Assembly: GCA_004347695.1 (NCBI GenBank)
Contig: SLTK01000007.1
Coordinates: 970,823-1,034,822 of the forward strand
From: Chloroflexota bacterium
GTDB taxonomy: Bacteria; Chloroflexota; Anaerolineae; Anaerolineales; Anaerolineaceae
Direction of reading: 5' to 3'
DNA length: 64,000 bases
The translations under genes were made by a program, and so were the position numbers. The notes beneath the pieces were generated by a model that was not told the DNA's origin, made no database searches, and saw nothing but the letters and a program-made list of their open reading frames with translations. Shown piece by piece: positions 45,767-53,410 of this stretch. Every line of letters starts with the position of its first letter. Position 1 is the stretch's first letter.

Positions 45767-46441
45767 ATGCCTGCTAATGATAATGGTAACCGTGTAGATA
45801 AAGAACGCCTGTACGAATTGTTTTCAAAAATTAGCAGCGCGATGGCTAATCGGCACCGGCTGGAATTGCTCGATCTACTGGTGCAGGCGCCGCGGACGGT
45901 TGAGGAGCTGGCGGAGCAGGCGCATATGAGCGTTCCCAATACCTCCCAGCACCTGCAGCGATTGAAGCATGCCAACCTGGTCATCGATGTGCGCGACGGA
46001 CAATACATTCGCTACTTCCTGGCGGACCCCTCGATCACCCGATTGTGGAGCGCATTGCGCCGCGTGGCAAAAAATCAGTTGGCCGACCTTGGCCCGGCTT
46101 TGGATCGTTACCGCCCGCAGCGCCACCGCTTCACCCGCATTACACCTGACGAATTACACGGCTGGATGCAAAGAGATGAAGCCGTTTTGATCGATGTTCG
46201 TCCCGCAGTGGAGTACAAGGCCGGGCATCTTCCCGGGTCGATTTCGATGCCCATTGATAATCTAAGCGAACATATCGCTGAACTCCCCAAAGGAAAGACC
46301 GTGGTTGCTTATTGCCGCGGACCGTACTGTGTATATGCTGACCAGGCATTGGAATTGCTTATGGATCAAGGTTACCCGGTCGCCCGCCTGGAAGAGGGTG
46401 TGGCCGAATGGCTGGAGGAAGATTATCCCCTCGAAACGTAA
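45767..46441 (+). CDS. ArsR-type regulator fused to a rhodanese domain
   Basis: 224 residues. N-terminal winged helix (about 15-95): ISSAMANRHRLELLDLLVQAPRTVEELAEQAHM and VPNTSQHLQRLKHANLV. No Cys-x-Cys metal site on the recognition helix and no Cys in the HTH part at all. The C-terminal rhodanese domain (about 124-220) has LIDVRPAVEYKAGHLPGSISMP and the active loop CRGPYC, Cys183 as persulfide carrier and Cys188 close by. Architecture suggests sensing of reactive sulfur through the rhodanese cysteines. The strong promoter with operator just upstream and the OsmC, methyltransferase and persulfide dioxygenase genes downstream support that role. Confidence 0.92.
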   Translation: MPANDNGNRVDKERLYELFSKISSAMANRHRLELLDLLVQAPRTVEELAEQAHMSVPNTSQHLQRLKHANLVIDVRDGQYIRYFLADPSITRLWSALRRVAKNQLADLGPALDRYRPQRHRFTRITPDELHGWMQRDEAVLIDVRPAVEYKAGHLPGSISMPIDNLSEHIAELPKGKTVVAYCRGPYCVYADQALELLMDQGYPVARLEEGVAEWLEEDYPLET

Positions 46442-46600: not shown

Positions 46601-47167
46601 ATGGCTACTACCGTCCAAACCAATCTTAATGGTGTCAATGTCGATACACTGGTCCAAACCATCCAGGCCATTCAGGAGAATCCTGATCTGGCAAAATTCA
46701 CCTTTCGCTCCCAGACAAAATGGATTAATGGTGGACACAGCACAACCATGATCCAATCTTTCCATGGTGCTGGCGCTGAAGATGCTTCTCGCACCCGGCC
46801 GTTTGTCATCGAAGGGGATGAACCGCCTGTTCTGTTAGGCGAAAACTACGGGCCGAATGCAGTTGAGTCGGTGCTGCAGGCGCTGGCTTCCTGCCTGGCC
46901 GTGGGTTTCATTTACAACGCGTCTGCTCAGGGGATCAAGGTTGACAGCCTTGAATTCTGGCTGGAAGGCGAACTGGACCTGCATCCTTTCCTGGGGCTAT
47001 CCGACAAAATCCGCCCGGGATACAACAAGGTCTCGGTCAATTACCGCATAAAGACCAACGCGCCCCGCGAAAAGGTCGAAGCGCTTTGCGACTACGTACA
47101 GGCGACATCGCCTGTAATGGATATCCTGCGAAATCCCGTGCCGGTCACCGTCAATATGATCGATTAA
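46601..47167 (+). CDS. OsmC/Ohr-family thiol peroxidase-like protein
   Basis: 188 residues. The two redox cysteines of the family are present: Cys98 in ASCLAVGFIYNASAQGI and Cys163 in LCDYVQATSPVMD. The GENYGPNAVESVLQALASC stretch is typical, and the N-terminal about 30 residues are an added helix. Family members reduce organic hydroperoxides, some also with persulfides. It lies 159 bp downstream of the ArsR-rhodanese gene, with TTGGAGG before the ATG. The neighbours suggest a role in sulfur-related oxidative stress. Confidence 0.88.
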   Translation: MATTVQTNLNGVNVDTLVQTIQAIQENPDLAKFTFRSQTKWINGGHSTTMIQSFHGAGAEDASRTRPFVIEGDEPPVLLGENYGPNAVESVLQALASCLAVGFIYNASAQGIKVDSLEFWLEGELDLHPFLGLSDKIRPGYNKVSVNYRIKTNAPREKVEALCDYVQATSPVMDILRNPVPVTVNMID

Positions 47168-47260
47168 GACCGGCACATTCATATAGATGCCCAAAGGGGG
47201 TGTTGCGGTGATGGCTTTGCCGCACGCCCCCTGCAACCGATAAATTTGAATGAGGTCAAT

Positions 47261-48103
47261 ATGGACCAACAAGTGATGATCCGCAAAGTTGACATTTCCG
47301 AGCTTCGCCGCGCCATCCAAACTGAATACGCGGCGGTGGCCACCGAGCCCCAGGGAGATTACCACTTTCACACCGGGCGAAACCTGGCCCGGATTTTGGG
47401 ATACGACGAGACCTGGCTGGAAGGTATCCCTGAAACCACCATCGAGTCGTTTGCGGGCACAGGTAATCCGTTTCGTATGCGCAAAATCGAGCCTGGCGAG
47501 CGCGTGGTGGACGTCGGTTGCGGCGCAGGGATGGACTCGCTGATTGCAGCCCGGATGACCGGCCCAAAAGGTCAGGTGATCGGCGTGGATATGACCCCGG
47601 CGATGCTCCAAAAGGCTAATGCCGGAGCGCGGAAAGCCGGCATCCCAAACGTGACCTTTCGGGAAGGATTCGCGGAGGCCTTGCCGGTGACCGACGGGTG
47701 GGCAGACGTGGTCATCTCCAACGGCGTGCTGAATCTCATGCCTGATAAAGAAGCCGGGCTGCGTGAAATGGCGCGCGTGCTCCGTCCCGGCGGGCGGCTG
47801 CAAATTGGGGATATTCTGGTGGACAGGGCGGTGCCCGAAAGCGCGAAAGCCAAGATCGACCTGTGGACGGGTTGAATAGCCGGTGCTCTGCTGGAAGCAG
47901 AGCTTCAGACTGCGGTCGCAGTCGCCGGTTTTGTCGGATTTGAGATCACCTGGCGCGGAGATGTGTACACGGGCGCGCGGCACGAGTCCAGCGCGGCGGA
48001 GTACGGTACCGTTGGCATCAATATTCGCGCGCGGAAACCTGTGACTGACGCTGAATGGGCAGCCGAGTTGGCCAAACTCAACTGCCGGTTGCCGGAGAGG
48101 TAA
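47261..48103 (+). CDS. ArsM-like SAM methyltransferase, candidate selenoprotein (Sec205 at in-frame TGA)
   Basis: 280 residues if the TGA at 47873-47875 is read as selenocysteine. SAM fold: RVVDVGCGAGMDSLIAAR (residues about 81-98), IGVDMTPAMLQKA, VISNGVLNLMPDKEAGLREMARVLRPGGRL. The TGA interrupts DLWTG-U-IAGALLE, where relatives (arsenite-methyltransferase-like proteins) have a Cys, as in ArsM CIAGAL-type motifs. After the TGA the same frame continues for 75 codons with coherent protein (VAGFVGFEITWRGDVYTGARHES, AEWAAELAKLNCRLPER) to TAA at 48101, 7 bp before the next gene. A SECIS-like hairpin follows the TGA. I recall a methyltransferase-domain selenoprotein family called MduS, which this may be. 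ArsM's first active-site Cys is not seen (SFAGTGNPF). ATG 47261 has TGAGG upstream. Confidence 0.85.
47873..47903 (+). promoter_or_regulatory. UGA-Sec codon with bacterial SECIS-like hairpin
   Basis: After the TGA a perfect 8-bp stem GCTCTGCT/AGCAGAGC (47885-47892 with 47896-47903) is capped by GGA. The apical loop starts 17 nt after the TGA and begins with G. This matches the bacterial SECIS description as I remember it (loop 16-37 nt from UGA, G in the first loop positions). A second 6-bp hairpin (GACTGC/GCAGTC) follows. Confidence 0.75.
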
Positions 48104-48110
48104 GACCAGC

Positions 48111-48842
48111 ATGTTCTTCCGCCAGATCCTTCACCCTGAGCGCGCCTGCCTATCGTATTTGATCGGCTGCCCGACCCTTGGGCGCTGCGCCGTCATCGAC
48201 CCGCAGGGCAGCCCGGATACGACCGTGCAGACGGTCGCGGCGAACGGCATGCGCATCACCCACATCTTCGAAACGCACATCCATGCCGATCATCGCTCGG
48301 CTGCCAGGGAACTGCAAGCCCTGACCGGCGCGCCCATTTATCTTGGGCCCGGGACCAGGGTTGATTACGCGGTGGAGACATTGGTGGACGAGCAAGTCCT
48401 CAAGGTGGGCAAGCGCAGAATTCGGGTTTTGCACACGCCGGGGCACTCCGCAGAACATGTCTGCCTGCTGGGCGACGACTGGTATCTGCTGACCGGCGAT
48501 GCGCTTTTCGTTGGCGATGTCGGGCGGGTCGATTTAGGCGACGAGGCCGCAACCCCCCGGGATTTCGAACGCTGCGCAGGTCAGCTTTACCAGAGTTTAC
48601 AGCGCCTGCTGGCATTACCCGACTGGATCGAAATATATCCGGGCCATTACGCCGGGTCGGCCTGCGGGCGGGACCTGGACGGGAAGCCGGTTTCGACCAT
48701 CGGCCGTGAACGGCGCATGAACCGCGCGCTGGGGCTCAGCCAGCCGGAGTTCATTCAATTTCAACTGGAGAATCGTCCCGAGCTGCCCGAAGATTTCCGC
48801 AGCATCCGGCAAATGAACATGAGTGTCAATGTGTCACCCTGA
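48111..48842 (+). CDS. ETHE1-like persulfide dioxygenase (metallo-beta-lactamase fold)
   Basis: 243 residues. Metal ligands: His56, His58, Asp60, His61 in THIHADH, His112 in HTPGHSAEH, Asp130 in LLTGDALFVGDVGRVD, His179 in YPGHYAGSACG. This is the pattern of the ETHE1/Blh branch, which uses one iron to oxidise glutathione persulfide to sulfite. The segment ERCAGQLYQSLQRLLALPDWIEIYPGHY is typical. 7 bp after the methyltransferase stop. The last codons (MSVNVSP) run into the tandem repeat downstream, so the C-terminus may have been reshaped by it. Confidence 0.88.
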   Translation: MFFRQILHPERACLSYLIGCPTLGRCAVIDPQGSPDTTVQTVAANGMRITHIFETHIHADHRSAARELQALTGAPIYLGPGTRVDYAVETLVDEQVLKVGKRRIRVLHTPGHSAEHVCLLGDDWYLLTGDALFVGDVGRVDLGDEAATPRDFERCAGQLYQSLQRLLALPDWIEIYPGHYAGSACGRDLDGKPVSTIGRERRMNRALGLSQPEFIQFQLENRPELPEDFRSIRQMNMSVNVSP

Positions 48843-49270
48843 GCGCAGTGAAGGGTCTCGGCGGCAACCATCGAGATGTTTCGCTGCGCTCACTCGCAGA
48901 GTGTCCCACCCTCAGGGTGCTCTGTGAGTGCGGACAGCATGACAACAAAAGTGGTACCCAGAGCGTAGCGAAGTGTCTCGGCCACAACCATCGAAATGCT
49001 GCACTGCGGACAGCATGAGTGCCAATTTGTCACCCTGACCGAAGGGAAGGGTCTCGGTGACAACCATCGAGATGTTTCGCTGCGCTCACTCGCAGAGTGT
49101 CCCATCCGAAGGGTGCTCTGTGAGTGCAGACAACATGAGTGCCAATGTGTCACCCTGAGCGCAGTGAAGGGTCTCGGCGGCAACCATCGAGATGTTTCGC
49201 TGCGCTCACTCGCAGAGTGTCCCATCCGAAGGGTGCTCTGTGAGTGCGGACAACATGACAACAAAAGTGA
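48816..49270 (+). repeat. Tandem 120-bp repeats
   Basis: Units start at about 48831, 48951 (shortened to 76 bp), 49027 and 49147; the full units are 120 bp. Each holds CACCCTGA, a variable core, AAGGGTCTCGG, then CAACCATCGAGATG, CGCTGCGCTCACTCGCAGAG and CTCTGTGAGTGC. The left edge lies inside the end of the dioxygenase gene. The CACCCTGAGC...AAGGGTCTC type is a known interspersed repeat of many environmental bacteria; here it is stacked in tandem. No protein-coding content. Confidence 0.85.
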
Positions 49271-51814: not shown

Positions 51815-53179
51815 TCAGGGTATTGCTGCAAGCGCTGCATCAGCCGTGGCTAAACCTGCCCCAGTTGCGTCCGCTCCCCAACAATATTTTGCTAATCCAC
51901 GCGGACCCAATACAGACCGGCAACCCGCTGGTAGTGGAACGGCGGACGTTTCAAGGATCACCTCTGCTTCTGGTCCAGATAAAGATGCATCCTTCTGCAC
52001 CATCAAAGCCACAATGCCGGCCACATGCGGCGAGGCCATCGAGGTACCGCCAAGGTAGTAGAAGGAGGTGCTCATACCGCTGTTGGTCTTGTATGGGCCG
52101 ACCACCCATGATCCGGGAGCAGCTACATCCAGGTCCTGGCCGGCTAATTCGCGGCTGGAGAAGTCGGTGATGTAGTAATCATTGGCGTTGAATGGATCCG
52201 GGACATTCAAAGTTCTCCACCAATTTGCCGCAGTCCACTCGCCGGTCCACCCGGAAGCCGCCACGGATATCACCGGGGCATACGCGCCCGGGTAACCCAT
52301 ACCAGCCGTGCCTGAATTGCCTGCCGAGGCGACAATGATCACACCCGCGTCGATCGCATAATCAACAGCGGCTTTTTCAATGATGTCCAAAACCGGGCCG
52401 CCAAGCGACATATTGATCACCACTGGAGCAGCACCTAAAGCACCGGATAATTTCAAATCTGCCACATATACGATGCCTTCAGCTACAGTGGATGACCAAC
52501 CGGAGCCATTCTGGTTGAGCACTTTCACCGGAATCACGGTTGCCAAAGGCGCTACCCCATTGATTGTCCGGGTGCCCATGAAATAACCCAGGATGGTGCT
52601 GGTGACATGCGTGCCGTGGCTGTTCTGGTCGTGTTCCCATTTGTTGGGCTGCTCGGAAACATACCCAACTTCACCACCGCCACCGCCGAAGGATTTGGCG
52701 TATTGTTCCGCAATGCGTTCCTGTGGGAAGAAGGCGCGCCAAATATCCACTAACCCGGTATCCAGTACGGCAACATAGACGCCGGAGCCGTCATAGGCAA
52801 CCTGACGTCCAACGCCAAAATTGGTCACATTGATAGCGTCCAGATCCCAGGTGTTGATCCCGTCCGAGAAATCTGTGGCAGACACAATATCCACCGGCGC
52901 AGCGTTCCGTTCGGCATCCGGGTTGGCGGCTGCCACATACGGCAGAGCGCGAATAACCGCCAGTTCACTCACGCGCACCTGCATGGTCAAGGCTCTGATC
53001 TCTGGCATCACAACTTTCACTTTGCCGTGCGTGCCAATGTCAGCTAACAGTTCGTCGTTGATATCGTAACTGAGCAGCACATTAATGCCAATGGTTTTGT
53101 TGGGCGCTGCGCCTAAAGAGGTGAGAGTGAGCGCCAGCATGCTAACGATTACCAAAAGACTTAATAATTTATGCTTCAT
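51815..53179 (-). CDS. Secreted subtilisin-like serine peptidase (S8)
   Basis: 454 residues. Signal peptide 1-24 (KLLSLLVIVSMLALTLTSLGA). A short I9-like propeptide region (about 27-90: TIGINVLLSYDINDELLADIGTHGKVKVVMPEIRALTMQVRVSEL, given here as location). Catalytic triad: Asp140 in VAVLDTG, His188 in SHGTHV, Ser380 in GGTSMASPHVAG, with the oxyanion Asn288 in SAGNSG. No C-terminal anchor or repeats, so it is likely released. The gene has its own promoter, a 230-nt structured leader with a terminator-like hairpin, and its own terminator, so it is a single-gene unit. Confidence 0.95.
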   Translation of the reverse strand: MKHKLLSLLVIVSMLALTLTSLGAAPNKTIGINVLLSYDINDELLADIGTHGKVKVVMPEIRALTMQVRVSELAVIRALPYVAAANPDAERNAAPVDIVSATDFSDGINTWDLDAINVTNFGVGRQVAYDGSGVYVAVLDTGLVDIWRAFFPQERIAEQYAKSFGGGGGEVGYVSEQPNKWEHDQNSHGTHVTSTILGYFMGTRTINGVAPLATVIPVKVLNQNGSGWSSTVAEGIVYVADLKLSGALGAAPVVINMSLGGPVLDIIEKAAVDYAIDAGVIIVASAGNSGTAGMGYPGAYAPVISVAASGWTGEWTAANWWRTLNVPDPFNANDYYITDFSSRELAGQDLDVAAPGSWVVGPYKTNSGMSTSFYYLGGTSMASPHVAGIVALMVQKDASLSGPEAEVILETSAVPLPAGCRSVLGPRGLAKYCWGADATGAGLATADAALAAIP

Positions 53180-53287: not shown

Positions 53288-53318
53288 AAAACGGCCGTGC
53301 ACTTAAAAATCACGGCCG
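53288..53318 (-). terminator. Terminator-like hairpin within the subtilase leader
   Basis: On the minus strand CGGCCGTG (53311-53318) pairs with CACGGCCG (53292-53299) around an 11-nt loop, followed by TTTT (53288-53291). It stands about 109 bp before the subtilase ATG and after a structured region, so it could be a conditional terminator. Confidence 0.65.
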
Positions 53319-53410
53319 GTTACGCCACTTGCTCGCCTATCCCCTGGCGTCCAGTCTCACAAGGATAGGGTCATTGCATCCGAATGGGTTGCCTACGGTT
53401 TGTTTTGCGG
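53319..53410 (-). promoter_or_regulatory. Structured 5' leader, candidate riboswitch aptamer (class unassigned)
   Basis: Between the promoter and the hairpin above. A perfect 7-bp stem CCTATCC/GGATAGG (53363-53369 with 53336-53342) encloses CTGG/CCAG (53344-53347 with 53351-53354). Before it, GGCAACCCATTCGGATGCAATG can form a short CATT/AATG hairpin; after it lies GGCGAGCAAGTGGCGTAACC running into the terminator stem. I could not match it to a known class. Confidence 0.45.

Follow-up and report, generated by a model that had tools for sequence, protein, structure and literature searches.

Arsenite methyltransferases of the ArsM/AS3MT type, such as CmArsM (PDB 4fr0), CrArsM (5evj) and the members of PRK11873/NF008823, bind arsenic through cysteines. 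One study assigns three cysteine ligands to arsenite, two to methylarsenite and one to dimethylarsenite (PMC3877260), and a survey of ArsM sequences took as its criterion at least three of the four cysteines at CmArsM positions 44, 72, 174 and 224 (PMC5552862). ArsM-like methyltransferases that contain selenocysteine (Sec) have already been catalogued (PMC2398784; PMC13188914, which cites Fomenko et al. 2007). The catalogued entries carry Sec in a UxxG motif and are treated as arsenite methyltransferases. The same kind of methyltransferase domain, also with UxxG, is present in the NCBIfam models ArsM_AhpD_UU (NF041537), ArsM_DUF2284_UU (NF041536) and MTase_UXPK_star (NF047649), which describe proteins that have at least two Sec residues and carry a further domain.

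The gene described here lies in a 64,000-nucleotide stretch of DNA from a Chloroflexota bacterium (GCA_004347695.1), referred to below as the window; the source genome amounts to 3.3 Mb in 14 contigs and is 91% complete. The predicted protein shares the fold, the SAM motifs and the reactive chalcogen position (Cys224 = Sec205) of ArsM/AS3MT, but it differs from these enzymes in three respects: it has no equivalent of Cys72 or Cys174, it scores under the family cut-off, and it is encoded in a sulfur-gene neighbourhood. With the catalogued Sec proteins, compared by their catalogue entries, it shares the Sec of the UxxG motif. Unlike the proteins of the three NCBIfam models, it stands alone, and it falls far below their cut-offs. 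The features of the locus are listed in Table 1.

Table 1. Positions of the methyltransferase gene, its putative recoding and translation signals, and its neighbours (window coordinates)
Feature	Position	Strand	Basis or remark
ArsR/SmtB-rhodanese fusion regulator	45767..46441	+	NF033788 (71 bits over cut-off), PF00581
OsmC family protein	46601..47167	+	PF02566
GAGG, probable ribosome-binding site	47252..47255	+	5 nt ahead of ATG; inferred from sequence
SAM-dependent methyltransferase CDS (subject gene)	47261..48103	+	280 aa, Sec at residue 205
TGA read as Sec, residue 205	47873..47875	+	aligned with CmArsM Cys224; homologue codons TGA or Cys
Putative bSECIS hairpin	47885..47903	+	8-bp stem, GGA loop, 17 nt after TGA
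ETHE1-like metallo-beta-lactamase, probable persulfide dioxygenase	48111..48842	+	PF00753 and PDB matches

The internal TGA is the sole interruption of the reading frame, which continues for 75 codons to a TAA at 48101-48103 and leaves a gap of 7 bp before the ATG of the next gene, as the initial annotation had described when it proposed that this codon is read as Sec. The protein beyond the TGA, which was judged there to be coherent, matches its homologues about as well as the part before it: identity to the L042 homologue is 0.66 downstream versus 0.69 upstream, the corresponding values for L084 are 0.68 and 0.67, and changes beyond the TGA fall mainly at third codon positions. Thus, the region past the TGA behaves as coding sequence. 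Elsewhere in the window TGA is a normal stop, ending 14 of the 41 long ORFs, the next gene included; the recoding is therefore local, as had been supposed.

Homologues were drawn from public genomes, from relatives, from the order and from the phylum. Among the 47 inspected, the codon aligned with residue 205 is TGA in 41 and TGT or TGC in six (L063, L064, L081, L082, L089 and L090), and no other codon is found, so that Sec or Cys occupies this position throughout. The TGA-bearing homologues are spread over many genera and include one from a second phylum, Gemmatimonadota (L001, 66% identity). Cys forms also occur on four plasmids, three of them haloarchaeal and one from Chelatococcus. In a maximum-likelihood tree the Sec and Cys forms are mixed, with at least four label switches and with two well-supported sister pairs of opposite type (L079-Sec/L082-Cys and L068-Sec/L081-Cys). 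Phage records gave weak generic methyltransferase matches only. In L129 (1491-2210, minus strand) there is another ArsM-like methyltransferase frame, more distantly related, which has its TGA at this site too (NWFA-U-IAGA) but lacks a Cys174 equivalent; its genome, G039, also has the main type.

In principle, the TGA could be a true premature stop in a pseudogene, or a mistake of sequencing or assembly, a general possibility with an incomplete assembly of 14 contigs. Sequencing error, which the initial annotation had marked for checking, is very unlikely because the same codon is TGA in 41 homologues, and the spread of these over many genera and a second phylum, the coding constraint downstream, and the SECIS covariation and complete Sec machinery described below all speak against a pseudogene or assembly artefact as well. 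The comparative data refute this explanation, and its probability is negligible.

The published model of the bacterial SECIS (bSECIS) calls for a stem of 4-16 bp, a loop of 3-9 nt with a G in its first two positions, a spacing of 16-37 nt and a minimum free energy of at most -7.5 kcal/mol (PMC13188914). The hairpin downstream of the TGA, GCTCTGCT-GGA-AGCAGAGC, falls within all of these limits, with the stem, loop and spacing given in Table 1 and -11.7 kcal/mol for the hairpin alone. Of the 2178 other TGA triplets on the two strands of the window, only 2 are followed by a stem of this strength at the SECIS distance. A scan with Rfam at gathering thresholds gave no SECIS match in the window. Since a single-sequence fold test of the region was not significant (z = -0.74), folding of this one sequence is not used as evidence, and it is the comparative evidence that counts. 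In a comparison of 38 distinct Sec genes, 91.1% of the alignment cells in the stem are paired, versus 30-52% in slid controls, and the covariation score of the stem exceeds that of all 500 shuffles. Compensatory changes are seen, as at pair 15-29, which is UA in 27 of these genes, CG in 8 and GC in 2. Pairing in the six Cys genes is 50%, near the shuffle mean and thus at background. The hairpin has therefore been conserved in the genes that need it and has decayed in those that do not, which agrees with its first identification as a bacterial SECIS.

The source genome also contains what is needed to make and insert Sec. Matches were found to selA (553 bits), selB (356 bits, over cut-off) and selD (355 bits), together with a tRNA-Sec (72 bits, anticodon TCA), so that all four of the genes selA, selB, selC and selD, which had been named beforehand as the ones to look for, are present. 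The selD gene (L037, G000:C7:104468-105400) contains an in-frame TGA of its own and thus probably encodes a selenoprotein itself. Among the six genomes with a Cys form, G343 and G240 gave no selA match. Of the 43 other genomes searched, 41 gave one; the two exceptions, G488 and G380 (the latter only 77% complete), bear the TGA. Since selA is in any case widespread here, with a match in 41 of 48 comparison genomes, its presence alone gives weak support for the TGA form, and its distribution is consistent with the Sec reading rather than strongly backing it. With the homologue codons, the covariation of the hairpin and the Sec machinery taken together, the proposal that this TGA is read as Sec is strongly supported, and from these sequence comparisons the gene is almost certainly translated through UGA as a selenoprotein. 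SelB and tRNA-Sec would recognise the hairpin just downstream and insert Sec at residue 205.

The product belongs to the class I SAM methyltransferases (Pfam PF13847, E 7e-33). The closest NCBIfam models, those for Sec-containing ArsM fusions and for ArsM, all scored below cut-off. The best of them, NF041537, matches the methyltransferase part only, at 239.7 bits where more than 510 are required, and the protein has no fused AhpD domain; a search of 400 genomes of the phylum gave no match to the ArsM-AhpD fusion family at E <= 1e-75, with the controls equally silent. An AlphaFold model (mean pLDDT 91) comes closest in the PDB to two structures of ArsM, 4fr0 and 5evj, so the label "ArsM-like" given initially was right by sequence and by fold. 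The SAM motifs DVGxGxGxD and VDMTP are present, the Rossmann SAM site is intact, and the SAM-motif residues G86, G88, G90, D110, M111 and T112 are invariant in the subfamily alignment. Given this intact site and the ArsM-like fold, the product is very probably a SAM-dependent methyltransferase.

A profile alignment to CmArsM places residue 205 at the arsenic-binding Cys224, in line with the claim that the TGA occupies a functional ArsM cysteine position, and Gly155 at Cys174; Cys72 is matched by a different amino acid. In a 32-row alignment of the subfamily, Gly155 and Sec/Cys205 are invariant, and the latter is the sole invariant Cys or Sec; the Cys72 position holds no Cys and is mostly Thr or Val. 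The Cys72 and Cys174 equivalents are missing from the haloarchaeal and Chelatococcus plasmid forms too. By contrast, the canonical ArsMs used for comparison, which come mostly from related genomes, contain the motifs GCG[ND]P and SNC, and they have a Cys at position 224 wherever this position is covered by the alignment. In the subject protein, the only Cys before the TGA sits in the SAM motif (DVGCGAG), with none near CmArsM position 44, and of positions 72, 174 and 224 only the last is kept, as Sec. By the cysteine count of the survey, this protein is thus not an ArsM.

These observations bear on the possibility that the enzyme is an arsenite methyltransferase after all, in which Sec replaces one of the arsenic-binding cysteines and As(III) is methylated. 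Such a reading fits the closest solved structures, which are of ArsM, the location of Sec at the Cys224 position, and a recent review that includes NF008823, with UxxG, among selenoprotein families (PMC13188914). However, equivalents of Cys72 and Cys174 are absent from every subfamily member examined, and arsenite, by the count cited above, needs three cysteines. In addition, the NF008823 score of 224.8 bits lies below the curated ArsM cut-off of 263, and the source genome has a separate ArsM-like frame at C11:19143-19655. Consequently, this reading is quite improbable. Dimethylarsenite, needing one ligand, is a conceivable substrate, if a less likely one than a chalcogen species. With two of the three arsenic-binding cysteines missing and the gene in a sulfur-gene setting, arsenic methylation is probably not the real job of the enzyme.

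The gene lies third in the order ArsR-rhodanese regulator, OsmC, methyltransferase, ETHE1-like metallo-beta-lactamase. The PDB matches of the last include 3tp9, a beta-lactamase/rhodanese fusion (the best), and 4chl, the persulfide dioxygenase ETHE1. Similar genes recur near other members of the subfamily: OsmC at 9 of 47 loci, the ArsR-rhodanese regulator and TusA-like genes at 7 each, and the metallo-beta-lactamase at 6, so that at least one of these four partners is found at 23 of the 47. None of the four is found at 37 canonical ArsM loci, in which a similar total of sequence was searched. OsmC adjoins three haloarchaeal Cys homologues, and in L062 (1258-2307, minus strand) the Sec methyltransferase runs in frame into a TusA domain. 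The motif of this TusA domain is CGEGPL, where CPxP is usual. TusA is a carrier of sulfane sulfur, rhodaneses transfer sulfane sulfur, and ETHE1 oxidises persulfides; handling of reactive sulfur or selenium is therefore the best-supported candidate role. Since the partners differ between loci, and about half of the loci have none in the stretch examined, the assignment to a pathway is indirect. Thus, of the sulfur, selenium and arsenic detoxification initially suggested from the neighbouring genes, the sulfur/selenium part is upheld and extended by the recurrent OsmC, ArsR-rhodanese, ETHE1-like and TusA partners, whereas the arsenic part is not, given the two missing arsenic-binding cysteines.

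Other flanking genes, among them those for DUF1326, a PpoB2 copper chaperone, a multicopper oxidase and an amidase, are variable and were left out of the comparison; copper-related neighbours (PpoB2 copper chaperone, DUF1326) occur near subfamily members in L112 and L114. Within the window, a tandem array with units of 120 and 196 bp (48818-49258) occupies the gap after the metallo-beta-lactamase gene. Further on, a c-di-GMP-II-GAG riboswitch (48.9 bits, 53305-53390, minus strand) lies immediately upstream of a gene (51815-53179) that probably encodes a subtilisin-like protease, as judged by eye from its translation.

The best explanation, to which a probability of about 0.6 is assigned, is that the gene encodes a selenoprotein SAM methyltransferase whose Sec205 engages a soft substrate, likely a chalcogen, for detoxification. 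As the single conserved chalcogen, standing where ArsM has an arsenic ligand, the selenolate of Sec205 would bind or activate a soft, thiophilic substrate that needs one chalcogen ligand, and the methyl group would come from SAM. The partners, an ArsR-rhodanese sensor, OsmC, an ETHE1-like persulfide dioxygenase and the TusA sulfur carrier, point to sulfane sulfur, sulfide or selenide, or to an adduct formed from such species, as the most likely substrate, which would be methylated for detoxification. OsmC and the ETHE1-like enzyme may remove related peroxides or persulfides, and the setting would be one of reactive-sulfur (or selenium) stress.

Alternatively, the protein could be a redox enzyme on a methyltransferase fold, in which methyl transfer has been lost and Sec205 serves, with OsmC, as a peroxidase-like or persulfide-handling nucleophile. 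Oxidoreductases make up the majority of the selenoproteins whose function is known (PMC2398784), the gene is linked to OsmC and TusA, and the best NCBIfam match is to the ArsM-AhpD fusion selenoprotein family. Yet the SAM-motif residues are invariant, and there is no second conserved Cys to resolve an oxidised Sec, which makes a redox function rather unlikely.

For the chalcogen methyltransferase, literature searches returned nothing on a Sec methyltransferase that has a single arsenic ligand and linkage to sulfur-carrier genes. The reduction of the three arsenic ligands to one and the tie to sulfur-carrier genes appear to be new, with the catalogued examples compared by their descriptions. 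A wider proposal, put forward tentatively, is that a widespread subfamily of the ArsM fold has abandoned arsenic binding and relies on a single Sec (or Cys) for the methylation of sulfide, persulfide or selenide species that TusA- or rhodanese-type carriers deliver, and that OsmC and the ETHE1-like enzyme supply accompanying activities.

An automatic annotation would end this gene at its TGA or call the product an arsenite methyltransferase; either result would be wrong or doubtful, and the case warns that ArsM-like matches alone are insufficient to infer arsenic methylation. To our knowledge, methyltransferases that use Sec are few. Through its single conserved reactive residue, its naturally occurring pairs of Sec and Cys forms and its recurring sulfur-gene partners, the subfamily makes the question of why selenium is used in a methyltransferase directly testable. 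If the proposal is true, the enzyme would be a selenoenzyme that methylates reactive chalcogens.
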